NCBI GenBank assembly: GCA_009785345.1
Contig: WQWL01000002.1
Span: 61,426-125,425, forward strand
DNA from: Oscillospiraceae bacterium
Lineage (GTDB): Bacteria > Bacillota > Clostridia > Oscillospirales > Oscillospiraceae
Direction of reading: 5' to 3'
Length of the DNA: 64,000 nucleotides
Below the pieces are notes generated by a model. The model saw only the letters and a program-made list of their open reading frames with translations. It made no database searches and was not told the origin of the DNA. Within the stretch, counting starts at the first letter, position 1. The number at the start of each line of letters is the position of its first letter. Position numbers and translations under genes: made by a program. Shown one piece after another: positions 42,258 through 59,590 of the stretch.

Positions 42258-45200
42258 TTATGGCAGCCTGTATAATATGGCATCTCTGTTGGTATTTAAC
42301 GGACGGTCCCCATCAACTTTTCCTTCGTTAATGAATACAGTTCTTGCACGCACTTCAAATCTGGCATTGTTGATTATTGTACCGTAGTTATACACCGTAG
42401 AATTTGATACATTCTCCACATGTCCATCATTTATCAGTATACCACTCTCTTCAATAATTATTGTACCGCCTCCATTGGGGCTGCCCTGGTTATTGATTCT
42501 TCCGCCCGGAAGTACCACTACACGACCTTCTATAATAAGTTCGGCATCACGCTGTATATTCAGGGTAGTTTCTACATACAATGTTCTGCCCGCAGGCACT
42601 ACAAACGGACTGTGTTGAGTAAATATACCCAGATTACCGCGAGTTTGCACTGTTGCATCCCCATCTTGCAGAAGCGCTCTTAGATGGTTCGGGTTGGTTC
42701 CAGAAAAGTCTGTTGGAGGTACCACTTCGCCGACTGCCATCAATCTTATCTCTGACAACCACATATCAATATTAGTACCTGTTGGTTGACGCCCTGTTTC
42801 ATGCAAACCTAACAATATACTGATATCCACAGTTTGATCAGCGGGAACAGTGAATCTGTATGTGACTGTGGTCGGGTCGGCAGCAGCTATAGACTCAACA
42901 CTTACAAGCAAAGTCTGTATGTCACCAATTTGAACTGTAACATCGCGTCTTGCAGCATTTGAACCTGCTCTTGCCGCAAATGTGAGCTCATAGATGATGC
43001 CTGCTTGCAAGTCAACACTTTGACTAAGTCGTGTTGCCTGCGGTGTGGTTCCCAATACTCCAAGATTTGTTGCTCTAAAGCGTTGGACATTACCACCTGT
43101 GCCTTGTGCTACATTTCCGCCATCTACGGTTCTCGTCCAGCCATTATCCGCCGCTGTAACTTGTGCAGAGAACAGACCATTTCTCAGCAAGTTTCCATCT
43201 CCGTCTGTTAGGCGACGCAGGAACACATTATCCATCACTACATCAGCTTCATTGCCACCAAATAAGAACTGGATTTGCATATGCCTATTGTCCGGATTTG
43301 GCTGTGTCAATGTGAACTCATGGGTACGAAGGATATATTCTGTATCCAAAGTAATCGTGCCTGTATAGAATACATTACCCTCCATGTCTGCCACACGGAA
43401 CACAATATCACGAGCTGACGTTGCACTGCCGAGGAATTCGATGCGGTATGTATCTCTGAACATTGGTATTAGCGTCTGTGTCATCATTACATCTTCCGGA
43501 GCAGCACCTGTAATATCCGTGACATGCAGTTGCCTCGGTCTAAACGGTGCAGAAGGTTGAAGAGGCCAGTGTGGCGGATGCCATGATACACAATCCGGTA
43601 CTTCAAATGTTGCCGTTGCAGCATCTGCTACTATCGGATTCCAGAATCCCATAAAGTTCGGACCTTGATCAAAAGTGCCGTTCCATACATGGTTCATGTT
43701 AGCCCCTGTTCCAATCGGAGTTTTAATAGGCTCTTCAAATGTTCGATACGGTATCTCTTCGATTCTGACATTGCCTATCCAAATATCATTTGCGTTGCCA
43801 CCCATGTTAAACTCAACACGCGCTCTTGCATGACTTGGATCAAGCATTGTGAACTGATATGAGAAAGTGCGTGTTTCAGTAGCAAGTGTGAAGCTTTGTC
43901 CGGCATATGTTGACCAGTTGCCGCCTTCACCACCTGCGCCGATATTAGCTGCAATGTTTCTCGGTGCTTGCGCTCTTGCATCAAATGTGAACTGATAGTG
44001 ACGCCCTTGTGCCAGTGGTACAAACTGCATCATTTGAATCGCCCAAGGCTGACCGCCGCCGGCTCCGATTGCTATGTGTAATAAGTCATCATCACCTACG
44101 GAAATACCTGTAACATTGCCGCCAGCTCCGCCACCATTATAAGTTACTATCCAGCCATCTTGATGCACAGGAGCACCGTCGATAGCTTGATTGTATGGAC
44201 CTGAAACATTTGCAAAATCGTTTCCGCGTGTGAAGTTGCCTGTTTCGTCAGGCTCTTTTGAACCTTCAGGATATTCATCCTTCTCTTCCTCTCCGCCCTC
44301 ACCGGGTTGGATGAGGTCACGACCTGTGAGTTCATAAACGCGCACGAACTCTACCAACATTTCGGCATATTCAAAATCAGCCGGAATCGTGGCGAGTGGG
44401 TCAAAGTTGCCACCCATTGCCATGTTGAGCAAAATGTGGAATGGTTGATCAAATGGTGCTGGTGAGGAGAATGGAGCCGATGTATTGTTGCCGCGGCTAA
44501 ACCATTCTTCGGAATTGCGTGTGTGATAGAGATCACCGTTGATATACCATCTCATTTGACCGGGTTCCCACTCTACTGCATACAAGTTAAAGTCAGTTAT
44601 GTTACGATCCGGGAAGCTACCGGTTTCAAAATGATATACAGCCATCCTGTATTGATGCACTCCAGGCCAAGGTCCACCAAAATGCACTGCACTGCTGGCT
44701 TCTCCGGGCAAACGACCCATAGCTTCCATGATGTCGATTTCACCGCCCATAGGCCATCCGCCATATAGAGAGTTTTGTGGCAACATCCAGAATGCAGGCC
44801 ACATGCCCTCAATATCCGGGAGTGCTATACTTGCTTCAAAACGACCATATGCTTGTGAAAAACCTTCAAATTCATCATTGAATGGATCATGAACACCTGA
44901 CGCACGCTCGCCGCCTGTGCGAATTCTTGCAGATGTGAAGTTACGTCCGGCAATAGGTGCATCTTCGCGTTGTCCTCTTATGACGAGATTGCCATCGCGA
45001 ACAGAAACATTTTGCCTGCGATAATATTGAAGTTCAGCATTGCCCCAACCAACTATACCATACTGTGCGCCTGTTCCGGTTTGGACATGCCATCTCGTTT
45101 CATCTAAATCATCGCCATCAAATTCATCTGACCATGTCAGTGTCCACATATCTGAGCAAGGACCGACATTTGGTGGTAATGGTCTGCGTCCGGGTACATC

Positions 45201-48200
45201 CGGAGGCTCGGCTCTTGCCGGAGCTAATCTGATTTCAGAGAGCCACATATCAACGTTTGTACCTGTGGGCTGGAGACCTGTTTCATGCCTGCCCAACAAC
45301 AGATAAAAATAGACCGGACCATCTTCTTCGACTGTGATTATCGTATTCCATGCTGTTGGCTCTGCTGCATTTATGGATTCAATCGGTATTACAAATCTGC
45401 CTAAGCCCGGGTTGCCTGCTACAGGATTGCCACCTACTTGAACTGTGATATCACGTCTTGCTGCATTTGTTCCGGCTCTGGCTGCTAAACTCAAAGCATA
45501 CTCAACACCAGCCTCAAGATACACACTTTGACGAAGCATTGTAGAGTGTGGGGTTGTTCCTAGTGCTGCCTGATTTGCAGCTCTGAAGCGCTGAAGGTTA
45601 ACACCTGTTCCTTGAGCCACATTGCCACCATCAGTGGTTCTTGTCCAACCGTTGCCTGCTGCGGTGACTGCAACAGAGAATACGCCGTTTCGCAACATAT
45701 TATTGTCTGTAACGGTTTGTGTCAATGTAAGCGGGGCAAATCCATCGGCTGTTATCTCGATAGTCAGATTTCCTCCGCGCGTGATGAATTCGCCTGGTAT
45801 TCTGAGATTTCCGTTATTATTGTCAATTATTGTTGGAACTGTCACAAAATTGCCAAACACACCAATGCGAACCGTTTTTTCAACAGCATTAAAGATAGGA
45901 TCGAATGCTGCATTGTATCGTAAGTCCATATCAACACCCGGTACTCTCGGACCTGATATCGGTACAACGTAGAACGTTGGGATTTGCCTGAATTGATCTT
46001 GCTGAATAAATACCCGAATATTCGAGATGTAAATCCTGCCGGTCACACTTGTCGGAGGTACATTACCCATCAAGAACTTTAATTGTAAGTCCTGGCTACC
46101 ATCTCCGGCTCCTGCTGCCATAAATGCCGGCATTCTGAAAGTTTGTCTTTCAGTTGACAATGAAACTATTTCATCCAACTGACGAGTTCCCCATGGTGGA
46201 GGTTCCACGACTACTTGCATTTCACGAGGATTTTGAGCCCATGCGTCAAATTCGACAATAAACTCATGTCCTCTCGGAATGCTCATCACAGGACTTTCAA
46301 GCTGATTGTACCACGGGCTGGCGCCTAAAGTATTAATAGTTGCTGTAAAGAAACCATCCTGTACAGTAAATGGATAACTTATCTCGCCAGCTGTATTCCA
46401 TCCGGTTATACCGGCAAAGAAGTCACCATTCCATAGCGGGAATACATTGACACCTGTATAATCCACACTTAGGAATGTCAAACGACGCAAAAATACGTTG
46501 TCCATTGTAACATCAGCAGTATTGCCACCGAAATTAAAGCGCACCTGCATTTCAGCACCGTTTTCGATGCCGGACAATGTAAACTCGTGAGCACGTCTTT
46601 CCATTGTCGTAGTTAATGGAATTGCAGCTGTGTGAACCACATTGCCATTCATATCAGCAACTTCAAAAACAATATTTCTCGCAGTAGCTACCATGGCGTC
46701 AAATTCAAGTCTATATACTTCATTGTGCATTGGAATGCGAGTTTGTACCAGCTGAATATCTGACACAGCTGCGCTTTCCGAAATGCCACTTACCTCTAAT
46801 TTACGTGGTCTGTTTGGATGCTGGGAAGGATCGTCTGCCACATAAAATGTCGCTGTAACATCATTATTTCTGATTAAATTCCAGAATCCAAGACGGTTTA
46901 CACCTCTGTCAAATGTACCGTTCCATATTATATTTCCATCTCTTAAAGTAGATTTTAACGTATTATCAGTCGGGTGCACCTCAGCGGTTGCTCCGGGAAC
47001 AGGACCGAATTCCGGACCGTCCCATTCAAAAATGCGTACATAATCTACCCACATCTCGGCTGATTGGAAATCCGCAGGTGGTGCAAGACCTCCATCAAAG
47101 TTTCCACCGATTGCTAAATTGAGCAACATATGGAAAGGTTGATCAAAAGGTGCCGGACGGGTGAAGTTTGCAGCAGCCGACGTGTTCGGGAAGCCTGGCT
47201 CACGACTCCACCATGTATTGGCATCTGTCATGTTAATGGTGAAGTAATTGACATCATTTACATACCATCTTATTTGCGAAGGTTCCCATTCGACTGCGTA
47301 TACATTAAAGTCATATATTGTTCGACCAACAAGGGCATGATTCCCGGCTCTCCATGAACTGCTCGGACTTGTGCCCCAGTGAAGTGCTCCGGTCACTATG
47401 CTTGGCTGACGTCCCCGGGCTTCCATTATGTCGATCTCGCCGCCCATAGGCCAGCCGCCATACAGAGAGTCTTCGGGTAGCATCCAGAATGCCGGCCACA
47501 TACCTTGACCTACAGGAAGAGCAATACTGGCTTCTATACGACCAAACATTGTTGAAATACCTGTGAATCCTTCCGCAGGTGCATCAGCACCGGATGCAGG
47601 CATTGTACCGCCTGTGCGAATCCTTGCTGAGGTAAAATTCATTCCTCCGTGATTTTCGCGTCTTGCTTGTATCAAAAGCATGTTGTTTCTTATAGAAACG
47701 TTTTCTCTACGATAGTATTGGAGCTCGTCATTACCCCAACCGGATAAGTTATAATGACCGCCTGTACCGGTTTGAACATGCCATATTGTTTCATCAAGAT
47801 ATGGTTCGGAGAAATCGTCTTCCCACACAAGCCTAAAATACGGATTACGTGCAAAATCCGGAGCAGGCTGACGATCACCTATAGTTATTAGTCGATCTAG
47901 AGCGTTTAATGCTGTGAGCAATGCTTGCCTGGCACCATCTACTTGTACTTGCGTAGCTTCTTCATCGTCACGGACAATTATCGCTGCTGCGAGAGCAGAC
48001 TGCATACTAGCCCAACTCTCCGATGTATAGCTCGTCTCGACCCTTGCTTGCGCTGCGCCGATAGTCTCAATGAGTGCTGACTTGTCTACTGTAGGACCGG
48101 GTTCATCGCCGACCGCAACCAGACTGACTTCTCTAAGGAACACTTGATTGGGAGTAGCAGGTACGTTTGCTGCAGGCATTCCGAGATGTAACATAAAGTT

Positions 48201-48740
48201 TGCACCATCAGCATGAGTTGGAGCTGCAACTGGCGTAAATTCATGCACCCATGTAGTGTATTCGGTACCTAAGGTTACAATACGTGCCCCGCCCCCTGAG
48301 GCAGCAGCTAGAGCACCGATTTCAACCGTGATGTTTCGAGCTTCATTACTGCGAGCGGTAACACTCAACCTATATGTTGTACCTACTGTCAGTTGTGCTC
48401 TCTGATGCAGTTGTATATGCCAGAAAGTACTACCTAGGGCTGGAATATTTACCACTTGAGTATTCTGTCCTTCGTCTTCTACCATTTCAAAGCTAAATGC
48501 AGGAATATTGTCTCTGTAGACATTCCATCCATGTCCTGCTGTTGTCGTCCATGTCGACGGTGGAGCCACCAACAAAGTTTGGAAATCACCATTTGTAAGC
48601 AGATTTGTTCCAACTGCAGGTGTCGCAAAAGCTTGTATCGGCAGAATTGAGATTGCCATCAATATGGCAAGAGCAATCGCCAACACATTTCGTGTCATTC
48701 TTCTCATAAAAAGCAGCCCTCCAAATATTTTTTTGCACAC
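42258..48740 (-). CDS. secreted multidomain glycoside hydrolase with two GH16 (laminarinase-type) catalytic domains and multiple CBM4/9-like domains
   Basis: Signal peptide (MRRMTRNVLAIALAILMAISILPIQAFA, probable start at that M); two catalytic cores GGEIDIMEARG and GGEIDIMEAMG; repeated carbohydrate-binding modules (LLTNGDF, NLLRNGLFS); FIVAR-like segment; beta-rich C-terminal tail. Confidence 0.88.
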   Translation of the reverse strand: MCKKIFGGLLFMRRMTRNVLAIALAILMAISILPIQAFATPAVGTNLLTNGDFQTLLVAPPSTWTTTAGHGWNVYRDNIPAFSFEMVEDEGQNTQVVNIPALGSTFWHIQLHQRAQLTVGTTYRLSVTARSNEARNITVEIGALAAASGGGARIVTLGTEYTTWVHEFTPVAAPTHADGANFMLHLGMPAANVPATPNQVFLREVSLVAVGDEPGPTVDKSALIETIGAAQARVETSYTSESWASMQSALAAAIIVRDDEEATQVQVDGARQALLTALNALDRLITIGDRQPAPDFARNPYFRLVWEDDFSEPYLDETIWHVQTGTGGHYNLSGWGNDELQYYRRENVSIRNNMLLIQARRENHGGMNFTSARIRTGGTMPASGADAPAEGFTGISTMFGRIEASIALPVGQGMWPAFWMLPEDSLYGGWPMGGEIDIMEARGRQPSIVTGALHWGTSPSSSWRAGNHALVGRTIYDFNVYAVEWEPSQIRWYVNDVNYFTINMTDANTWWSREPGFPNTSAAANFTRPAPFDQPFHMLLNLAIGGNFDGGLAPPADFQSAEMWVDYVRIFEWDGPEFGPVPGATAEVHPTDNTLKSTLRDGNIIWNGTFDRGVNRLGFWNLIRNNDVTATFYVADDPSQHPNRPRKLEVSGISESAAVSDIQLVQTRIPMHNEVYRLEFDAMVATARNIVFEVADMNGNVVHTAAIPLTTTMERRAHEFTLSGIENGAEMQVRFNFGGNTADVTMDNVFLRRLTFLSVDYTGVNVFPLWNGDFFAGITGWNTAGEISYPFTVQDGFFTATINTLGASPWYNQLESPVMSIPRGHEFIVEFDAWAQNPREMQVVVEPPPWGTRQLDEIVSLSTERQTFRMPAFMAAGAGDGSQDLQLKFLMGNVPPTSVTGRIYISNIRVFIQQDQFRQIPTFYVVPISGPRVPGVDMDLRYNAAFDPIFNAVEKTVRIGVFGNFVTVPTIIDNNNGNLRIPGEFITRGGNLTIEITADGFAPLTLTQTVTDNNMLRNGVFSVAVTAAGNGWTRTTDGGNVAQGTGVNLQRFRAANQAALGTTPHSTMLRQSVYLEAGVEYALSLAARAGTNAARRDITVQVGGNPVAGNPGLGRFVIPIESINAAEPTAWNTIITVEEDGPVYFYLLLGRHETGLQPTGTNVDMWLSEIRLAPARAEPPDVPGRRPLPPNVGPCSDMWTLTWSDEFDGDDLDETRWHVQTGTGAQYGIVGWGNAELQYYRRQNVSVRDGNLVIRGQREDAPIAGRNFTSARIRTGGERASGVHDPFNDEFEGFSQAYGRFEASIALPDIEGMWPAFWMLPQNSLYGGWPMGGEIDIMEAMGRLPGEASSAVHFGGPWPGVHQYRMAVYHFETGSFPDRNITDFNLYAVEWEPGQMRWYINGDLYHTRNSEEWFSRGNNTSAPFSSPAPFDQPFHILLNMAMGGNFDPLATIPADFEYAEMLVEFVRVYELTGRDLIQPGEGGEEEKDEYPEGSKEPDETGNFTRGNDFANVSGPYNQAIDGAPVHQDGWIVTYNGGGAGGNVTGISVGDDDLLHIAIGAGGGQPWAIQMMQFVPLAQGRHYQFTFDARAQAPRNIAANIGAGGEGGNWSTYAGQSFTLATETRTFSYQFTMLDPSHARARVEFNMGGNANDIWIGNVRIEEIPYRTFEEPIKTPIGTGANMNHVWNGTFDQGPNFMGFWNPIVADAATATFEVPDCVSWHPPHWPLQPSAPFRPRQLHVTDITGAAPEDVMMTQTLIPMFRDTYRIEFLGSATSARDIVFRVADMEGNVFYTGTITLDTEYILRTHEFTLTQPNPDNRHMQIQFLFGGNEADVVMDNVFLRRLTDGDGNLLRNGLFSAQVTAADNGWTRTVDGGNVAQGTGGNVQRFRATNLGVLGTTPQATRLSQSVDLQAGIIYELTFAARAGSNAARRDVTVQIGDIQTLLVSVESIAAADPTTVTYRFTVPADQTVDISILLGLHETGRQPTGTNIDMWLSEIRLMAVGEVVPPTDFSGTNPNHLRALLQDGDATVQTRGNLGIFTQHSPFVVPAGRTLYVETTLNIQRDAELIIEGRVVVLPGGRINNQGSPNGGGTIIIEESGILINDGHVENVSNSTVYNYGTIINNARFEVRARTVFINEGKVDGDRPLNTNRDAILYRLP

Positions 48741-48937: not shown

Positions 48938-48965
48938 AACGGCGCATCTGGGATGACGCGCCGTT
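48938..48965 (-). terminator. candidate terminator at the end of the RHS cassette
   Basis: AACGGCGC-N12-GCGCCGTT stem just past the stop at 48979; TTTT follows closely on the - strand. Confidence 0.5.
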
Positions 48966-48978
48966 GTGTTATAGCCTC

Positions 48979-49170
48979 TTATTGTATGCTAGAATTTGGA
49001 ATTTCAATGGTATATGTGCCATTATCTTCGACAATTCCCAATGCATCAATACGTTCAAAGTTCTCATCACGGCGACGCAACACATCATGATTCGGATATA
49101 GTGCATTTTCCATAAACCAATCGGCTTCTGCACCATCCAGTAAAATTCTATTATCATTATATTCAGCCAT
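48979..49170 (-). CDS. small hypothetical protein at distal end of RHS cassette
   Basis: 63 aa, AAAGGA RBS about 9 nt upstream of ATG; acidic; family not recognised. Confidence 0.45.
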   Translation of the reverse strand: MAEYNDNRILLDGAEADWFMENALYPNHDVLRRRDENFERIDALGIVEDNGTYTIEIPNSSIQ

Positions 49171-49183
49171 ACCGCAATCCTTT

Positions 49184-49403
49184 CTAAACCATTACCGGCG
49201 GCATTTGCAAACCTTCCTTGTTAAACTGATAAGCATATACATCACCTCTAAAAGCGGATACTGCTGTGAAAAAGTCGTTGAACCACCTCACTTTCAGCAG
49301 ACCTTGGGGGATGGACATTACAATGAAATAAACCTGTTTCTTGTACAAAAATGCCAACATAGCTAATAGCATTGTCACCAAATCTTATACTTGAGCCACT
49401 CAT
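49184..49403 (-). pseudogene. degraded fragment(s), partly related to the candidate immunity gene
   Basis: The 49184..49381 frame ends in RGDVYAYQFNKEG, matching NIGDVYAYQFNTEE of the 49462..50331 protein. A different frame (49403-49248) encodes a plausible MSGSSIRFGDNAISYVGIFVQETGLFHCNVHPPRSAESEVVQRLFHSSIRF. Confidence 0.45.
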
Positions 49404-49461
49404 AACAAATCCACCGCACGGGAAAATGATTTCAGCTTATTACATCAACACTTCACTTTCA

Positions 49462-50331
49462 TTATAATTGCTTCCACCTAAACACTCCGTCTTCAAATTC
49501 TTCGTACTCTCTGTCTTGAAAAGAAGAAAAGCGGTAGTTAAGTGATTTTTCGATATCTCTCCAAAAAATATAAAAAAATGGCGGAGAGTTATTGGCAGGA
49601 ACAGGCATATTACCAAGATAAGAAAGATTCTTTGCAGGATAATGCACTTTTTTTTCTAAATCCATGAAACTGCTCATGAAGATTGCTTCTCCCAAATTAT
49701 TTATCTGGGCAGGTAACAATCGAGCATCCATTATATCTGCAGCTGTTGGCATTTCGTCAAACAATTTATTGAATACATGAATACTCATCCTCACTGGTTC
49801 TTTCGCAAGCTCTTCTGGAGTCTTCCACTTATAATATTCATCCTTTATGCCTTCTCCCATTTTTTGAATAAGTACATATTTCCCGTATTTTCCTGTTGCC
49901 TTTGACTCCTCCGTGTTAAATTGATAGGCATATACATCACCAATATTCCACAGATTTTGATTTACAACTTCCATCTTTTTCTCTCTGCGCATTGGTGATT
50001 CTAGCTTTTCTTTCAATTTTGACAACGTTTTCTTCCATCCCGCAGAACTCGCACCGCTATCTTCCCAAAGGCTCACACCACCATCTTTTTCAATCCACTC
50101 GAACGCTTTTTCTTTTACCTCCGATGTTAACCGACCAACTTTCCATTGCGTTTCTGCAAGAGCATACCAAAATAATGGCTCATCATCATCGCCAATTAAT
50201 TCCTCAAAGTCCATCATCGTCTTTTCAAAAGCTTCATCATTACTTAGTTGCTCCAGTAGATATTCAGTATATGTATCTCTTACATCACAAGTTGTGTCAT
50301 TTCCGTATAAACTACTACTCCACGTCCCCAT
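49462..50331 (-). CDS. candidate immunity protein for the upstream RHS toxin
   Basis: 289 aa, starts 32 bp after the RHS stop with an AAAGGAG RBS; MGTWSSSLYGNDTTCDVRDTYTEYLLEQL N-terminus; soluble and acidic; position typical for polymorphic-toxin immunity genes. Confidence 0.6.
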   Translation of the reverse strand: MGTWSSSLYGNDTTCDVRDTYTEYLLEQLSNDEAFEKTMMDFEELIGDDDEPLFWYALAETQWKVGRLTSEVKEKAFEWIEKDGGVSLWEDSGASSAGWKKTLSKLKEKLESPMRREKKMEVVNQNLWNIGDVYAYQFNTEESKATGKYGKYVLIQKMGEGIKDEYYKWKTPEELAKEPVRMSIHVFNKLFDEMPTAADIMDARLLPAQINNLGEAIFMSSFMDLEKKVHYPAKNLSYLGNMPVPANNSPPFFYIFWRDIEKSLNYRFSSFQDREYEEFEDGVFRWKQL

Positions 50332-50363
50332 TTTACACTCCTTTTGTTTGAAATTGTTTTAGC

Positions 50364-53300
50364 TTAGTCTGTACATGGAATTGTGCTGAAAAGCGTTGTT
50401 ATTCGCTGAATCTCATCAGCATATCTAGGATCATCCCAGTTTCCTCTTGCAATTGAATAAATCACGTTAGCAGTTCCATATGTGCCAAACGCCATCATTA
50501 GAGCTTGCTCCCATGTTCTTGCTTGGTCTCTTGTTAGCCCAGTCATAATTTCATTCATCTCAAATCTAAGCGCATTGTTTTCAAGTAATGGGCCAAACTT
50601 TAATTTGCTTATTTGATTATTTGTGTTGCGATGATTTCTTTGTCGACTGTCAAAATTTGTTGTGATTCCAACATACCAAACACTTTCTGCAGTTATCATT
50701 CCACCAGCATTGTCCCATACAAGATATACCGAATATCTGCCACGACCTTTACTCTCTGCTCCTGTCCGCACCTGATTTAAAGCTGAATTTCTTAAACCTT
50801 CATGTAAATTCTCTTCAACAATTCGGAGAGGCTCTTCAAGTCTAGTACGTACACGATCTCCTAAAGAATTTTCGGGATATGGCAAGCTATCTGCCGTCAT
50901 TGCATTATATATTCCATACCCAACTACAGCTGTTGCTCCGGCGCCAATCAAAGCCTCTTTGGCTTTTGTCCCAGCATTTGCGATTTCAGGACCATATTTG
51001 ACAATAAGAGCTCCAATGGTGAAAATTGTAAATGTAATTGGACCTTCTCCGGTTAAGTCAACCTGTCCTAATGGACTATTTATACAGTACGAATATAAAT
51101 TTTTGCCTTGCAAAATACCATCTTGGTACGGAAGCAATCCAGCATTCGGAGGTTCAAATGTTAAATCACCGAAGAGCATATTCTCCGGATGCCAATGTAC
51201 ATCCTCAGCGCTAAATCTACCGGTAGTCGGTGTATAATATCTCGCCTGAGCATACTGCATTCCGCTGATGCTGTCTGTTTGATACCCTGTGAATCCGAAT
51301 GGATTCTGTGTATTTCCACTTGATTCAACAGTTGGCACTCCAAACTCATCATATGCAAGCTTTTCTTGTTGCTCATCACCCATAAGACGTATAGGCGAAC
51401 CAAGATGGTCAGAAAGATAGCTAATGTTATTGCCACCCTCTGATTGAAGTAATTCATTACCCCACACAAAGCGTTGCTCACCTGTGGCAAGTAAGTCATT
51501 ATATGGTTTTGTCAAATCGAGCGTATACTTGACTTCCTTGAGTGGGTCGGGTATAGGTGTTTCGTTGCTCTGCATTATCTCAAGCATACTTACACGCTTT
51601 AAGAATCCATTGTACTCGTACTCGGCTTTACCCTTGCTCGTTATAGCTTCAACCATACGGTTTGCTGCATTGTATGTAAAGCTTGATGTGTTTTTACCGT
51701 TTTCTATAATGCCAGTCAAATTACCTCTAGCATCATAGCCGTAGTCTTTTACAACTTCACCCTCTGTAGTTTTAATAAGCTGGTTTCGTGCATTGTAGGT
51801 ATGTCTCGTCTCAATACCATTTTGCTGACTCATTATGCGATTGCCGAGACTGTCATAGTGATATTGCTTTTTGTTATTATTGTTGTTAGTTGCTTCTGTA
51901 AGCCTGCCAAGCTTATCATAGACATAGTCGAACACACCATTATCTGTGTCCATACCACTACGATGTTTCTCTATTTGTGTGATATTACCTACAGGATCAT
52001 AGCTGTATTTGAAGCTATCAAGCACTTCGCCATTCTTTTGATGCGTCAAGCTTTCAAGTCTGCCCAGCGAGTCAGCTTTTTGATGTGTTACAATATTGCC
52101 CGGCATGATACGTTCAAGCAATCTGTCAGCTATATTGTAATTATATGTTGTTGTGCCTGAACTTGATGCAACACTTTCTATTCGCCCTGATATGTCATAA
52201 CCGTAATTGACTGTGCTCTTATCCGGATATGTAACACTTTCTCTGCGACTTAATTTATCCCATGCATACTCTACCACATTTTCATCATGGTCAGTTACTT
52301 TAGTTGCTCTACCAAGTGGGTCAACCTCTATTTTCGTCGTACCAAGCCAGTCTTTTAGCTCTGTTAGCTGTCTTAATGGATTATATGATAATTCAACTGT
52401 CTTACCATCAGCATAAGCAACTTTCGTTAACTTGTTTGCAAGATTATACTCATATAATGTCTCCAATCCCTCTTCATCAATTTGAGAAATGAGATTGCCC
52501 ATTGAATCGTACTTATAGTGTGATTCTCCACCGAGTGGTGTGCTTTTCTTTACTACATCACCGCATTTATTGCGATCCCAGGTTGTCACTTGCAGTTCTA
52601 TTTGCTTAATATCCGCAATTGTTTCATCAACAATACGATATTGCTCCATACGGGTCATTCTGCTTAAGTTATCATAGCTATATTTCGTGCTATGTCCCAT
52701 GGCATCAATCACTTCAATTAATTCGCTCGTAGCAGAATAAATATATTTCGTTTCATTTCCGTTCTCATCCGTTATGCCCGTAATATTACCCAAAGCATCA
52801 TAGCCAAAGTACTTGGTATGACCAAGTGCATCTATTGTTTTTACTATGCGGTCAAGACAGTCGTAATCCAATATTGTTACACTACCTGAGGCATCAGTTA
52901 TTTTTACGATGTTGCCATTTTCATCATGCTCATAACTCTCAACCTCACCACCAGGACGTGTGATTGATTTTAGTTTACCACCGAGATAGTAATCATACTT
53001 TGTAGCTTCACCTAATGCATTAGTTGTACTCTCGACTTGTCCCAAGTTTGTGTAGGTGTATGTTGTCGTATTGCCAATCTGGTCAGCAACTGATGTAAGT
53101 TGACCTGCAACATCATACGTTCTTGATATTTCGCCGTTCTGTGGGTCAATTACTTTTGTTGCGTTACCAAGTGCATCATACTCAATTTTTGTTACAACGC
53201 CATCAGGTTCAACAATTTCAGTTTGCCTGTCAAGTGCATCATATTTCATCTCAACTTTTGCACCAAGTGGAGATGTTACTATTATCACATTGCCGTTGTG

Positions 53301-55964
53301 GTCATGTTCATAGCTTTTAACATTGCCCTCTTCGTCTTTGGTTTCTACTACTCTTTGATTCTGGTCATAGACATAGCTCACAGTATTACCGCAAGGGTCG
53401 GTCACAGCTGTCACGTTCCACATTAGGTCATATTCAAGTTTTGTAATTCCGCCTGATGGATTTATTATTTCTTCTACTTTGCCTAATTTATTATACTTGT
53501 ATTCAGTTATTCCGCCATTGAAGTCGATATTTTTTATTGCTTTACCACTTGCGCTATACTCAAATGTTTGCTCTTTACCATCGGCATTAGTAACTTTTGA
53601 TATATCGCCATTTGTGTTGTGTTCAAATATAGTTGCATTGCCTTTAGCATCTATAGTCTTGACCACTCTATTTAGCAAATCATATTCATAACTTACAACA
53701 TTCCCATCATTATCTGTAATTGATGAAATATTACCTCTGCCGTCATAACTAATGCTATTGACACTATCATCAGGCAATGTAAGATTTGTAATGAATCCAC
53801 GCTCATCATTTGCCAGCTTCATAGCATAACCCAATGGGTCAATAGCAGCTGTTATGTTGCCATTATCGTCATACTCATTCGTGACTACCCCACCAACAGG
53901 ACTTATGATTTTAGTTGGACTATTGAACGCATTGTACTCAAATGTGGTCTCATTGCCTAATGGATCGATAATCTTTGTGGGATTTCCTGATGTGTCATAC
54001 TCAAAGTTCGTCTCATTCCCATTACGGTCAACATGCTTAGTTCGCTTGCTCTGCTCGTTATACTCAAAACACTCTTCGCTATCTGAATAGATAGTACGTA
54101 TCGTACGATATTTGTTATCATGTTCATACTTTATCTCATTACCATTTTGCTCTGTGGCTATCGTCATCCTATTCTGATAACTAAGCGAACACTCACCGCC
54201 ATCGGCAAAGCTCTGAGCTATCATTCTACCATTGCCATCATACTTGTTGCGGATTGACTCTACGCCCAGCGGGTTCGTTATCGTTGACAGATGACCATAT
54301 GAATCATAACCATAGCTGTATTCTGCTCCGGATGGATGAACTACTTTGATTAATAGTACTCCTGAGTAGTCAAGCTTCACTTCACGACCTGTATGGTCAG
54401 ATATTTTCGTTATGCGACTGCTCTTGTCATATGCAAATGATAGGCTACCACTTTGTGTGGAAACCTTGCTTAGAAGTCTATCTTTGTATTCAAACTTTGT
54501 TGCATTACCGTTTGAATCACTTATGCTTTGAAGCAGTCCACCTTTGTCAAAATTATAACTTTCGCTTGCGTTCGTAAACAGCTCCCAACCATCATCAGTT
54601 TTCATTAAGCGATAATCACTCTCTAGTGGAGAGACATATCCGCTTTCCTTTGAATAGTTGTACGTCTCAACACGACCATCACCAAATGATATGTTAACTG
54701 CTGTTTCCATATCATCCAAGCATATATTGTAATTATGTGTCCAGTTTGCTCCCAGTGTGCTTTCCGTACCGCCGATACTATTGTAGAAGCGTTTAAATTC
54801 CAATGGAAAACGTCCAGGCACTGTTATATCTTCTTTACTGTATATAAAGTTCCCCGTGCTCATATTTACAGGGTCGAAGCCAAACGCACAGAAATTATTC
54901 ACTCCTGCTAATGCAAGCATGGCTTTAAAGAATAATACAGATAAGGATTCTTGGTCAGCTGGCGGCATCTGTGATTTTACATTAAGCAATCCATCCCAAT
55001 CTACAATACCCGCATTCGGACAGAAACTGCCCATTATTGCCTGAAACTGCATTGCAAGCTGGTGCATTTCTCCCGCCAATTGTTCGAACTCGCCTGCAAA
55101 GTAAGCATCACAATCTATGCATTCTTTTACATAGTGCTCAAATCTTTGGCGCGTAAATATTATATCTTGTACAAGGTCAGCTGCTCCTTGATCTAAGCGC
55201 GTCGCTTCAGTTCGGTAGGTTTGTGCTTCAGTCTGCAAGCTGTTTATGTTGCTTGTCAGTTGGCTCATTGTATTATTGCGATTACGTGCCTGGGCTACCG
55301 TTTGATTTGGAGGTATAGGCTGATTACGCATACGATTCAGTTGCCACTGCAAATCACTTACTTGCCAGTCAAGTTGTTCTGCGTGGTTACGTGCGCGCTC
55401 TGCGTAGTCATGCATATCTTCATTTACATTTTGCAGAGTTGCCTCATTGCCTACACGGTATGAATCTGCAACAGAAGATTGCATCTCAAAACCACCGCCA
55501 CCACCGCCGATACCCAACATTGCACTCCCTTGACGGTCCGTTATATCTCCGGCTCGGGTTAGTAAATCTCTCACCTGAGGTTGCAACATTCTTAGCATTT
55601 GAGTTACGAGACGTACTTGTGTACTTGTTTGGGGTAAACGTAAGCTGGTTGATACTGTGTTATCTATTAAATCATATATTTGATTCAGTTCTTGTGTTAT
55701 TTGCTCACCAAACATTCTGTGTTCATTTGCCGCACTTGTATATGCATCAGAATTTGCAACTATATTTGCACTCGTTTCGAATCCGGCAGTTACACCGGGA
55801 CTAAATACAGCTTCTGACTCTAAAAGTGGAAGATGACGTGAAGCCGGACGTGCTATCGCTGGCATATTAGTCGACGATAACGACATTACCGCATTAGCTG
55901 TTGTCATTGCCTCCTCACATACACGTAAATATTGTTGGGCTGGTGCGCCCGAATACCCTTGCAT
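50364..55964 (-). CDS. RHS/YD-repeat polymorphic toxin with helical N-terminal region and GIY-YIG nuclease-like C-terminal domain
   Basis: Dozens of YD repeats (YEYDxxGNxTxxxDPxGN); RHS core end TGRFSAEDVHWHPENM..NLYSYCINSPLGQVDLTG; C-terminus YSVYLVWDNAGGMITAESVWYVGITTNFDSRQRNHR...RTWEQALMMAFGT. ORF track start is 56030, but GAGGAGATAACAGA-ATG supports 55964. Confidence 0.85.
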   Translation of the reverse strand: MQGYSGAPAQQYLRVCEEAMTTANAVMSLSSTNMPAIARPASRHLPLLESEAVFSPGVTAGFETSANIVANSDAYTSAANEHRMFGEQITQELNQIYDLIDNTVSTSLRLPQTSTQVRLVTQMLRMLQPQVRDLLTRAGDITDRQGSAMLGIGGGGGGFEMQSSVADSYRVGNEATLQNVNEDMHDYAERARNHAEQLDWQVSDLQWQLNRMRNQPIPPNQTVAQARNRNNTMSQLTSNINSLQTEAQTYRTEATRLDQGAADLVQDIIFTRQRFEHYVKECIDCDAYFAGEFEQLAGEMHQLAMQFQAIMGSFCPNAGIVDWDGLLNVKSQMPPADQESLSVLFFKAMLALAGVNNFCAFGFDPVNMSTGNFIYSKEDITVPGRFPLEFKRFYNSIGGTESTLGANWTHNYNICLDDMETAVNISFGDGRVETYNYSKESGYVSPLESDYRLMKTDDGWELFTNASESYNFDKGGLLQSISDSNGNATKFEYKDRLLSKVSTQSGSLSFAYDKSSRITKISDHTGREVKLDYSGVLLIKVVHPSGAEYSYGYDSYGHLSTITNPLGVESIRNKYDGNGRMIAQSFADGGECSLSYQNRMTIATEQNGNEIKYEHDNKYRTIRTIYSDSEECFEYNEQSKRTKHVDRNGNETNFEYDTSGNPTKIIDPLGNETTFEYNAFNSPTKIISPVGGVVTNEYDDNGNITAAIDPLGYAMKLANDERGFITNLTLPDDSVNSISYDGRGNISSITDNDGNVVSYEYDLLNRVVKTIDAKGNATIFEHNTNGDISKVTNADGKEQTFEYSASGKAIKNIDFNGGITEYKYNKLGKVEEIINPSGGITKLEYDLMWNVTAVTDPCGNTVSYVYDQNQRVVETKDEEGNVKSYEHDHNGNVIIVTSPLGAKVEMKYDALDRQTEIVEPDGVVTKIEYDALGNATKVIDPQNGEISRTYDVAGQLTSVADQIGNTTTYTYTNLGQVESTTNALGEATKYDYYLGGKLKSITRPGGEVESYEHDENGNIVKITDASGSVTILDYDCLDRIVKTIDALGHTKYFGYDALGNITGITDENGNETKYIYSATSELIEVIDAMGHSTKYSYDNLSRMTRMEQYRIVDETIADIKQIELQVTTWDRNKCGDVVKKSTPLGGESHYKYDSMGNLISQIDEEGLETLYEYNLANKLTKVAYADGKTVELSYNPLRQLTELKDWLGTTKIEVDPLGRATKVTDHDENVVEYAWDKLSRRESVTYPDKSTVNYGYDISGRIESVASSSGTTTYNYNIADRLLERIMPGNIVTHQKADSLGRLESLTHQKNGEVLDSFKYSYDPVGNITQIEKHRSGMDTDNGVFDYVYDKLGRLTEATNNNNNKKQYHYDSLGNRIMSQQNGIETRHTYNARNQLIKTTEGEVVKDYGYDARGNLTGIIENGKNTSSFTYNAANRMVEAITSKGKAEYEYNGFLKRVSMLEIMQSNETPIPDPLKEVKYTLDLTKPYNDLLATGEQRFVWGNELLQSEGGNNISYLSDHLGSPIRLMGDEQQEKLAYDEFGVPTVESSGNTQNPFGFTGYQTDSISGMQYAQARYYTPTTGRFSAEDVHWHPENMLFGDLTFEPPNAGLLPYQDGILQGKNLYSYCINSPLGQVDLTGEGPITFTIFTIGALIVKYGPEIANAGTKAKEALIGAGATAVVGYGIYNAMTADSLPYPENSLGDRVRTRLEEPLRIVEENLHEGLRNSALNQVRTGAESKGRGRYSVYLVWDNAGGMITAESVWYVGITTNFDSRQRNHRNTNNQISKLKFGPLLENNALRFEMNEIMTGLTRDQARTWEQALMMAFGTYGTANVIYSIARGNWDDPRYADEIQRITTLFSTIPCTD

Positions 55965-56043
55965 TCTGTTATCTCCTCTGTAGTACTTAATAATTTCTGA
56001 TTTTTCATTAATTTGATTTACATGCTGCACTCTACTGGCGAAT

Positions 56044-56340
56044 TTATTGGTCAGTGATAAATCTTCTGCTTTGTGATTGGTCTACAGAAGCTGCTGCTTG
56101 AGCCGCGTTTCTTATAAAAACACTTAAGTTATGTAATGTTACACACGCTGCATCTGTAGTTTGTCTTGTGAAACCGCTAAATTGCAATATGCTATATCTA
56201 GCTGCGCCATCAAGTCCTCCTTGATGTGAGCTAGATTGTGATATGTAATTTGCAGTCGATTGTTCGGTAGCATTTGTTGAACTAGAAATAGAGCTGCTTT
56301 GCGATTGAACGCCCGAATTGTTAACAAACATCTCTGACAT
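56044..56340 (-). CDS. small helical, Ser/Gln-rich protein preceding the RHS toxin; candidate WXG100/DUF3130-like secretion partner
   Basis: About 98 aa from MSEMFVNNSG; GGGAGA RBS upstream of 56340; co-directional with the RHS gene under one promoter. Family assignment is by gestalt only. Confidence 0.5.
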   Translation of the reverse strand: MSEMFVNNSGVQSQSSSISSSTNATEQSTANYISQSSSHQGGLDGAARYSILQFSGFTRQTTDAACVTLHNLSVFIRNAAQAAASVDQSQSRRFITDQ

Positions 56341-56411
56341 CTTAGATATCTCCCATAACTTATAGATTCTTAATAGCGCTAATACTAACAACACTATGTG
56401 TTAACAAGGAT

Positions 56412-56440
56412 ATCATATTCATCATATGGCAAGATGTCAA
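56412..56440 (-). promoter_or_regulatory. consensus sigma-A promoter for the RHS cassette
   Basis: On - strand TTGACA (56440-56435), 17-bp spacer, TATGAT (56417-56412), about 72 nt upstream of the 56340 start. Confidence 0.75.
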
Positions 56441-56612: not shown

Positions 56613-57413
56613 CTATATACTCTTGTACAAATCTTCCAACATTCCAATGTACTGCTTTAAAGCTGTGCGTACAGATTCGGTATCATCGTCTTTTGCATAA
56701 TCTCTTAGCATATGACGAAACTCTTTTGTCATTTTACTAAACTGCACTTCCCACTCTCGCATCTCACCGGAGCCTATTGCTCCGGTTTTTCCGCTTTCAA
56801 ATGTTCCGTCTTTGATTTTATCAACGACAGCAGATATATCTTCATCTTTGCTTGTTGATAATTCTTGTAACTGTCGTCTGCTGATATGAGTTTTACCGGA
56901 GAGTATATCCATTTTCACATCAGGTGATATTTCACCTATGGCGCTTATGGCGTTTGCGACTTGTGAATCTCTTGAAATTGTACTGTGAGATACGTTATAT
57001 ATTTCTGCCAATCGAGCCGCAGTGCTGGATTGAAAAACCTCATTTTGAGGTTTTTCATTTTCCTGCACAAATTGATTGTTTCTACCTTGTATTTTCTTGT
57101 CCGTATTGTAGTGCAAACCACGATAAAAGCTCAACTGCAAAGGATTTAGGTTTCGTCGCGATACCTGCGTTGATATAATCCAGATGAGAACGTCATCTCT
57201 GGAATCGAATTCCATGTCAACAGTATTAATCGGCAAATCATGTTTTTGCAGAATACTATATCTGTTATGCCCGTCAATTAGTATGCCGTTCCACAAGACC
57301 AAAGGCTCACGACAGCCGTATTCCAGTATGTTTTCTTCAAGCCATGCGTATGTCTGTTCGTCAAGTTTCGGTAAGATACGTTCAAACTCTTCGTCTATGA
57401 TTATTTCTAGCAT
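56613..57413 (-). CDS. ParB-like N-terminal domain protein with HTH
   Basis: LEENILEYGCREPLVLWNGILIDGHNRYSILQ, AARLAEIYNVSHSTISRD. ORF track start is 57428, but GGAG lies 9 nt before the ATG at 57413. Confidence 0.75.
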   Translation of the reverse strand: MLEIIIDEEFERILPKLDEQTYAWLEENILEYGCREPLVLWNGILIDGHNRYSILQKHDLPINTVDMEFDSRDDVLIWIISTQVSRRNLNPLQLSFYRGLHYNTDKKIQGRNNQFVQENEKPQNEVFQSSTAARLAEIYNVSHSTISRDSQVANAISAIGEISPDVKMDILSGKTHISRRQLQELSTSKDEDISAVVDKIKDGTFESGKTGAIGSGEMREWEVQFSKMTKEFRHMLRDYAKDDDTESVRTALKQYIGMLEDLYKSI

Positions 57414-57453
57414 AATTATGTTCTCCATTCGCTCAATATAATGTATTTATTAC

Positions 57454-57652: not shown

Positions 57653-58948
57653 ATGAGATTAAACTGGATGCAACTGAAAAACTTTCGTTGTTTTGAAACC
57701 CTTGACATTACCTTCAAGGAAAGGATGTCTGTAATTGTCGGCATAAATGGCGCGGGTAAATCTTCTGTTTTAGACGCAGCAAGTATTGCAATTGGTTCTA
57801 TGTTGCTTGGTATAGACGGAGTATGGTCATCGGGGATTCTGTCTGATGATGTACGATATGTCTCTTATCATGCCGGTAGTAAACTAGATTTGCAGCCACA
57901 ATTTCCTGTAACGATTACCGCAGACGGTGAGTTGCAAGGGGAAGAGGTTCGCTGGTCTCGCTCGTTACGGGGAGAAAATGGCAAAACGACAAGTGTTGAT
58001 GCGAAACAGTTGTCTAATATTTCAGCAAATATGCAAAAAAAGATACGACGAGGTAATATGTCGGTGGTTATTCCGCTTATCTCGTACTACAGCACAGGGC
58101 GACTCTGGGCAAAGAGGCATCAAAAGAAAAGCGGTTTAAAGCACATTCAAAGTACAGGCAGATTTTCAGGCTACTTCGGTTGCCTTGATACAAAGGCGAA
58201 TGAACAATTGCTCATGAAATGGTTTGAAGAAATGACTATGATTGAGCTTCAAGAAAGACGCACGATTCCCGAACTGTCTGCAGTAAGGGGTGCAATTGAA
58301 AAGTTTTATACACGTATGACCAATCATACAAATGTTGAGTTTCACTTCCGCCTTGCAACAAAAATGCTTGAGTTTGAGTATACTAACGAGTATGGCGATC
58401 GATGCAAAGTACCTTTGAAGGATCTGAGCGATGGATATCAAAACACGCTCAATATGATTGCCGACATCGCATATAGGATGGCTACTTTGAATCCTCAACT
58501 ACTAGAGAATGTAATTGAGGAAACACCCGGCATTGTTTTGATTGACGAGGTTGACCTGCATTTACACCCGACATGGCAACAACGAATCTTGCACGACTTA
58601 ATGGAAATTTTTCCAAAGGTACAGTTTATTGTTACAACCCACGCCCCTGCGGTAATCCAGTCAATCCAAACAGAAAGCCTAATTATTTTAGACCATTCAC
58701 AAACCTTCGAACCCCCAATCCCAACATATGGACGAGATGCGAACTCTGTATTATCCATTATTATGGGAACAAGCACGCGTCCAAAAGAAGTGCAAGATAA
58801 ATTCAAGGAACTGGACAATGCACTATCGGAGAGTGACCTTGAAAAAGCTAGGGTTCTATTATCAGGCTTGGAAGATCAGATTGGGGACGGTGACCCAGAT
58901 TTAATCGCTGCCCGAATTTCCTTAGAGCTTGAGGAGTGGGAGGACTGA
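57653..58948 (+). CDS. ptuA: Septu PtuA-like AAA/ABC-type ATPase
   Basis: MRLNWMQLKNFRCFETLDITF, Walker A GINGAGKSS, LKDLSDGYQNTL signature, GIVLIDEVDLHLHPTWQ; paired with an HNH gene. Confidence 0.75.
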   Translation: MRLNWMQLKNFRCFETLDITFKERMSVIVGINGAGKSSVLDAASIAIGSMLLGIDGVWSSGILSDDVRYVSYHAGSKLDLQPQFPVTITADGELQGEEVRWSRSLRGENGKTTSVDAKQLSNISANMQKKIRRGNMSVVIPLISYYSTGRLWAKRHQKKSGLKHIQSTGRFSGYFGCLDTKANEQLLMKWFEEMTMIELQERRTIPELSAVRGAIEKFYTRMTNHTNVEFHFRLATKMLEFEYTNEYGDRCKVPLKDLSDGYQNTLNMIADIAYRMATLNPQLLENVIEETPGIVLIDEVDLHLHPTWQQRILHDLMEIFPKVQFIVTTHAPAVIQSIQTESLIILDHSQTFEPPIPTYGRDANSVLSIIMGTSTRPKEVQDKFKELDNALSESDLEKARVLLSGLEDQIGDGDPDLIAARISLELEEWED

Positions 58949-58951
58949 GCC

Positions 58952-59590
58952 GTGATTGTAATAAACAAACGTTCTGGCGAGCCTCCAGAATTATCGCGAT
59001 ATCGCAAAACAATGGGTGCTACATATGATGACCTCAAAGGAGACCCAAAACAGAAAGTAAGGGAAAGCCTTGTGAAAGAACAGGGTGGTATCTGTGCATA
59101 CTGTATGAAACGGATTCAAGCGACAAGTGAAGACATGAAAATTGAACACTATCTACCGAAAGCGAAAAAAGAATTTCGAGATAAAGAATTATGCTATCAG
59201 AACATGCTTGCTGTTTGTTATGGAAACGAGAAAATCCCGGATACAGATAAAACCTGTGATACTAGTAAGCAATATGAAATGCTCACCATCAACCCGATAT
59301 CAGGATATGGAATATCAAAAATCAAGTACAAACCAATAAGCGGAGAAATTTATTCTGAAGACTCTGAAATCCAACATGATCTCAATTACACACTAAATCT
59401 AAATTTCATATGGTTAAAGCAAAGTCGAAAAGCTGCATTGGATGCATTAAAAAAGATGCTAAATGACAAATATAAAGGGGATTGGAAATTGATTGCCCAC
59501 AAATGGCATAATAAATATCAAACAGCTAATCCCAAGCAGGAATATGTTGGAATTTTGTTGTGGTATCTGCAAAAATTCGCGAATCGATAG
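58952..59590 (+). CDS. ptuB: Septu PtuB-like HNH endonuclease (TIGR02646-like)
   Basis: GTG start 3 nt after the ptuA stop codon; SLVKEQGGICAYCMKRI...MKIEHYLPKAK HNH core. Confidence 0.78.
   Translation: MIVINKRSGEPPELSRYRKTMGATYDDLKGDPKQKVRESLVKEQGGICAYCMKRIQATSEDMKIEHYLPKAKKEFRDKELCYQNMLAVCYGNEKIPDTDKTCDTSKQYEMLTINPISGYGISKIKYKPISGEIYSEDSEIQHDLNYTLNLNFIWLKQSRKAALDALKKMLNDKYKGDWKLIAHKWHNKYQTANPKQEYVGILLWYLQKFANR

Follow-up and report, generated by a model that had tools for sequence, protein, structure and literature searches.

The question raised by this locus is how a giant RHS protein, encoded between a small helical protein and a soluble protein, might act and by what route it might leave the cell. 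We think it likely that the product of this cassette is an antibacterial polymorphic toxin that leaves the cell through a type VIIb secretion system (T7SSb), with a partner-bound N-terminus, a nuclease tip and a 289-aa antidote, both export and toxicity being predictions. According to the proposed mechanism, the helical N-terminus of the RHS protein and a bound 98-aa partner would together form a composite targeting signal for EssC, and the RHS shell would carry its C-terminal GIY-YIG (URI-fold) nuclease out via the T7SSb to a neighbouring cell. There the tip would cut nucleic acid, and the 289-aa soluble protein would neutralise the nuclease in the cytoplasm of the producer. At the level of sequence, support comes from the order of the genes, the pairing of toxin and partner, the presence of a T7SSb in the genome, an operon-borne homologue, a nuclease motif and the co-occurrence of tip and immunity gene; complex formation, export, killing and neutralisation are what anatomy and precedent would lead us to expect.

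The window, by which we mean the entire 64,000-nucleotide stretch that was analysed (G000:C2:61426-125425), belongs to a genome of 3.5 Mb in 237 contigs that is 86% complete, and its home is probably the termite gut, judging from a same-genus relative (G002). The layout originally described, in which a promoter is followed by the 98-aa protein, the RHS protein and the 289-aa protein, all on the minus strand, is borne out. The near-consensus sigma-70 promoter upstream of the partner gene (TTGACA-17-TATGAT; 56412..56440, minus strand) was correctly called, given that it agrees at 11 of 12 positions and ranks top among the sigma-70-like sites across a scanned 8.1 kb. That region holds 31 such sites in all, no more than shuffled sequences give (27.1 +/- 5.7), and no conserved counterpart precedes the sister cassettes with which it was compared. 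The Ser/Gln-rich helical partner of 98 aa, a proposed T7SSb targeting factor, is encoded at 56044..56340 (-), and the RHS protein of 1866 aa at 50364..55964 (-). The open reading frame listed for the latter begins at GTG 56030, whereas close homologues all begin at the equivalent of ATG 55964 (MQGYSGAPA...), and we therefore prefer ATG 55964 and regard the GTG start as unlikely. The 289-aa ORF (49462..50331, -) begins 32 bp past the RHS stop codon.

Past these three genes, the layout is less sharply defined than had been described. A degraded paralogous fragment was expected, and what can be recognised is probably the short remainder of a second immunity gene (49184..49381, -); the match is weaker than claimed, consisting of an 11-aa stretch (GDVYAYQFNKE, compared as GDVYAYQFNxE, 10 of 11 residues identical, E=0.005) plus one overlapping weak out-of-frame match. 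The 63-aa ORF is present as described (48979..49170, -), with no relative in the fetched loci and no family match by profile search. The terminator-like hairpin past the last ORF (48938..48965, -) does fold with 11 pairs, but it has no T-run and we do not call it a terminator. To call the cassette self-contained was also an overstatement, as export would need machinery encoded elsewhere.

Other genes in the vicinity deserve mention in their own right. Adjoining the cassette, at 57653-59590 (+), are PtuA (486 bits) and PtuB (215 bits), anti-phage effectors of the Septu/retron-Ec78 type, and beside them is a ParB-like-looking ORF of 271 aa (56613-57428, -) that matches no family above cut-off. 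The region 42258-48740 (-) encodes a protein of 2160 aa that seems to carry a signal peptide and contains repeats resembling GH16 glycosidases; contig C32 encodes a comparable protein of 1889 aa, in which a GH16 domain is found, near the T7SS locus.

Since the window carries no secretion machinery, a search of the whole genome for EssC had been set beforehand as a test that could refute the T7SS idea. The idea survives, as EssC is encoded on contig C32 (TIGR03928, 1429 bits against a cut-off of 778). EssB/YukC is found on the same contig (128 bits with TIGR03926, below its cut-off, and 178 bits with the YukC Pfam model, above its cut-off), together with a WXG100 protein marginally under the Pfam cut-off (23.2 bits), and an EsaA N-domain is found on contig C19 (TIGR03929, 73.6 bits, under its own cut-off of 122). 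With EssC, EssB, EsaA and WXG100 represented, we regard the genome as carrying T7SSb machinery. The C32 locus also holds DUF4176, a YwqH-like protein and an LXG-domain N-terminus cut by the contig end. A YukD-like ORF in the genome (L005:7424-7746) is broken by a frameshift at a run of A, which could be real or an assembly error, and for this reason the function of the genome's own T7SSb machine is uncertain.

The strongest evidence for the predicted T7SSb export of this cassette family comes from the placement of a homologue in G002, a same-genus metagenome-assembled genome (record WQXS01000017, contig C17, Oscillospiraceae bacterium Emb289P3bin50) whose source, Emb289, is the termite Embiratermes neotenicus. 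There, an RHS gene whose product has a 52%-identical N-terminus lies 24 bp downstream of EsaA within a T7SSb operon. The order of genes is WXG100, EssA-like (a weak match only), YukD-like, EssB, EssC, TIGR04197, a helical 125-aa protein, an LXG-like toxin, a candidate lipoprotein, EsaA, the RHS gene, a small membrane protein and a 98-aa-type partner. In the window genome, EsaA lies 2.6 kb upstream of the C19 cassette. A true EssC, scoring above cut-off, was found in 11 of the 119 relatives, and both genomes with the full module are among those 11.

The window copy itself resides on a contig other than that of essC and is not linked to a secretion operon, and this distance lends some weight to the view that, though a polymorphic toxin/immunity locus, it is not exported and serves as a reservoir or relic from which T7SS-linked copies draw by recombination. 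Broken siblings in the same genome point the same way, namely a copy at C19:2206 with an internal stop and N-terminal fragments at C19:29179 and C19:13969, as do the truncated RHS copies described in Listeria (PMC10327511). However, the three main ORFs of the window copy are intact, its promoter is good and its partner gene is full, and its core is 74-98% identical to that of the copy on contig C80 over most of residues 501-1600, with both frames open. We judge a reservoir or relic to be unlikely, and favour a cassette whose toxin is still exported.

The RHS protein has the architecture expected of such a toxin, with the helical N-terminus followed by DUF6531 (54660..54875, -; family profile match, 73.9 bits), which begins the RHS shell, about 20 RHS repeats (432 bits), an RHS core-associated domain (50.3 bits) and GIY-YIG. 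RHS/YD repeats and a core-associated domain ahead of a variable tip place it among the RHS polymorphic toxins. The tip (50367..50741, -) had been predicted to be a GIY-YIG nuclease, and this assignment is supported by a PF01541 match that, for the isolated tip, is barely over the cut-off (22.8 versus 22.6 bits), and by an alignment in which the residues Y, YxG, R, RxxE and N of Tox-URI1 are kept in both the window and the C80 tips (the list Y, YxG, R, [RK]xxE, N is taken from PMC3482391). Among sister RHS copies, the core is conserved and divergence begins past about residue 1640, leading into the tip; the window and C80 tips share roughly 25-35% identity. Exactly two RHS proteins in the genome, those on C2 (the window) and C80, have GIY-YIG tips, and the only other GIY-YIG match is a 479-aa frame on C1. 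Other cassettes carry HExxH (C19) or DUF6973 (G002) tips.

The distribution of the 289-aa protein follows that of the GIY-YIG tip. Full-length genes of this type occur in the genome at exactly the C2 and C80 loci, where the C80 homologue (53% identical) likewise comes after the RHS gene and has an additional N-terminal fragment beside it. Toxin and immunity thus appear to travel together, which supports the prediction that the 289-aa protein, for which hydropathy analysis gives no TM segment, is a cytosolic immunity protein. The HExxH- and DUF6973-tipped cassettes are followed by unrelated membrane-anchored proteins and the nuclease-tipped ones by soluble proteins, and the type of immunity would therefore change with the tip.

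It could be argued that the 289-aa protein is an accessory gene and that immunity resides elsewhere, for example in the 63-aa ORF, given that no Imm family match was found for it. Yet the 63-aa ORF has no relatives at the fetched loci, and the only other GIY-YIG-tipped RHS gene has the 289-aa homologue in the same position. Immunity genes often occur as orphans, and orphan homologues of the 289-aa protein exist in relatives. One is 69% identical and sits within a run of small immunity-like genes in G008, and another is 49% identical and fused to a nucleotidyltransferase-like (Polbeta) domain in G018 (L038:5593-6882, contig C59), a genome without a true EssC. An accessory role strikes us as quite unlikely, and we retain the 289-aa protein as the candidate antidote. 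Two family assignments were considered and rejected: Imm26 (PF15428), suspected because of its pairing with URI toxins, was not found, and DUF4259, suspected from the MGTWxSSLYGND start, gave only a sub-threshold match in one homologue. The G008 run itself (L037:7145-15893, contig C89) is made up of small membrane, lipoprotein and soluble genes and is toxin-free, resembling an orphan immunity island.

How the toxin might be recognised for export depends on its N-terminal domain (54931..55964, -), a proposed export/targeting module. The helical stretch was originally put at about 350 residues, and the domain as delimited here spans about 344; hydropathy agrees with the original view that the protein lacks a signal peptide (the Kyte-Doolittle(19) maximum in the first 70 aa is 0.92). 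The region has no Pfam or NCBIfam match above cut-off. An LXG nature is not borne out by sequence, as there is no match to PF04740, for which the C32 toxin N-terminus by contrast scores 40.8 bits, and a profile of the region finds none of the LXG-like toxins of the same genus, with shallow alignments (Neff about 2). An AlphaFold model is of low confidence (pLDDT 64, pTM 0.47), and its sole Foldseek matches, generic long coiled coils of the BAR type with none at E<=0.001, were discarded. A YxxxD at residues 97-101 is invariant, a lead only; we set it aside as a signal, as 0.56 such occurrences are expected by chance.

For the partner, a WXG100 or DUF3130/Lap-type identity had been put forward for checking, and no sequence test supports either. 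The 98-aa protein contains no W and matches neither the WXG100 models (PF06013/TIGR03930) nor the DUF3130/TIGR04197 models, nor any other family; it has no FxxxD motif (D87 is invariant, F is absent), and its profile does not match the TIGR04197 and WXG100 proteins of the same genus in similarly shallow alignments (Neff about 2). AlphaFold gives one long helix rather than a WXG100-like two-helix hairpin, at low confidence (pLDDT 75, pTM 0.33; 5-sequence alignment), and Foldseek with this low-confidence model returned no matches. Sequence searches of the PDB were likewise uninformative.

The partner appears to be dedicated to this N-terminus. Relatives of the N-terminus of at least 300 aa number four (38-76% identity; two on C19, one on C80 and one in G002), and C19 and C103 also hold fragments and less similar copies; a match on C117 spans the DUF6531 side of the query only. 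Scanning GTDB contigs with the single N-terminal sequence found none, and scanning with the alignment found the G002 record as the sole hit. The partner family (A1) has exactly five copies in the 119 genomes, all at the five loci with the N-terminal domain, giving a strict one-to-one pairing (5/5). The window partner is 43-70% identical to its four homologues, which are 98-105 aa in length and whose genes directly precede the toxin gene at three loci and come second after it in G002. When the identity matrix of the partners is set against that of the N-termini, the two correlate at r=0.95 and the true pairing is the best of 120 permutations; the comparison is small and tree-confounded but consistent with co-inheritance. 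Of the five N-termini, one belongs to a non-RHS toxin (L014:10563-12851) that has a partner of this type too, from which we conclude that the pair is a movable module independent of RHS.

Only one partner is visible here, which counts against T7SSb export because two or three are usual among the T7SSb toxins characterised so far. The N-terminus is so long that it may itself fill the role of a second partner. We regard as about evenly poised the proposal that the N-terminus of about 344 aa and its one partner constitute a distinct T7SSb targeting module, one that shares no sequence relationship with LXG/Lap or WXG100 and can pass between RHS and non-RHS toxins, and in which the N-terminus may supply that role. 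A different reading is that the toxin takes some other way out (via Sec, like WapA, or by lysis) and that the partner serves as a chaperone or regulator with no connection to T7SS; RHS proteins do use several export routes (PMC3482391, PMC10327511), and the partner lacks T7SS family signatures. Nevertheless, the missing signal peptide, the G002 operon, EsaA near the C19 cassette and the strict pairing of partner and N-terminus make this very unlikely, and T7SSb export remains our preferred route. That the target is a gut eukaryote such as a protist, as the termite origin of G002 might suggest, is highly improbable, as the matched immunity gene implies self-sensitive bacterial targets and cellulolytic flagellates are absent from higher termites (PMC11481507).

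Several known systems invite comparison. WapA-type RHS toxins, which are Sec-exported, share the RHS shell, variable tip and immunity gene but differ in their export signal. The closest parallel is Listeria LrhA, which has DUF6531, a helical N-terminus and three small helical partners (LxpABC, one of them WXG100), lies next to essC8 and is followed by the immunity gene LrhI (PMC10327511); RHS substrates have since been generalised across T7SS types (PMC11217815). Both cassettes combine DUF6531 and RHS repeats with small helical partner(s), directly downstream immunity and a T7SSb link, and both have, by description, a helical N-terminus without a known domain. However, LrhA has an unknown tip and membrane immunity and adjoins essC8, whereas the window cassette, an orphan locus, has one non-WXG100 partner and pairs its GIY-YIG tip with soluble immunity.

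Small helical partners are experimentally required for export of LXG toxins and EsaD (PMC9600955, PMC10653861). The LXG/Lap1 (DUF3130/TIGR04197)/Lap2 (DUF3958) systems resemble the present cassette in their polymorphic C-terminus, helical N-terminus, upstream small helical partner, downstream immunity and T7SSb in the genome, but have LXG, DUF3130/TIGR04197 and FxxxD features absent here, and two partners rather than one (PMC9600955). EsaD with EsxBCD is also a nuclease toxin with small helical partners and an immunity protein, but it has no RHS shell and uses three partners plus the EsaE chaperone (PMC10653861). Tox-URI1 shares the URI/GIY-YIG tip residues and RHS carriers, whereas the export routes given for Tox-URI1/Tox-URI2 do not include T7SS, and Imm26, absent here, is among the antidotes given (PMC3482391).

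Thus, T7SSb-linked RHS toxins with small helical partners are already known (PMC10327511), and what is new here is a single partner of a new family; the GIY-YIG tip with soluble immunity and the orphan location also set the cassette apart. These findings extend T7SSb-linked RHS toxins from Listeria, and neighbours of other T7SS types, to Oscillospiraceae-type gut genomes, and give the GIY-YIG nuclease tip a T7SS link that was not given in the 2012 polymorphic-toxin survey. A compact one-partner module, simpler than two- or three-partner complexes, would also offer a handle on EssC recognition.

Further toxin loci were encountered in the same genome. An additional RHS gene on C19 (L014:2197-7899) has its own 116-aa partner and a stop about 160 codons in. 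On C8 (L044:8656-13723), an LXG-like toxin is accompanied by TIGR04197 and a helical partner, and after it come displaced toxin tails, every one of them with a candidate immunity gene, in what resembles a silent-cassette array. Finally, an RHS toxin on C117 (L018:1591-7581) has two small partners, of which one clearly belongs to TIGR04197 (34.3 bits, cut-off 26), indicating that RHS toxins of this genome also use an LXG/Lap-like route.
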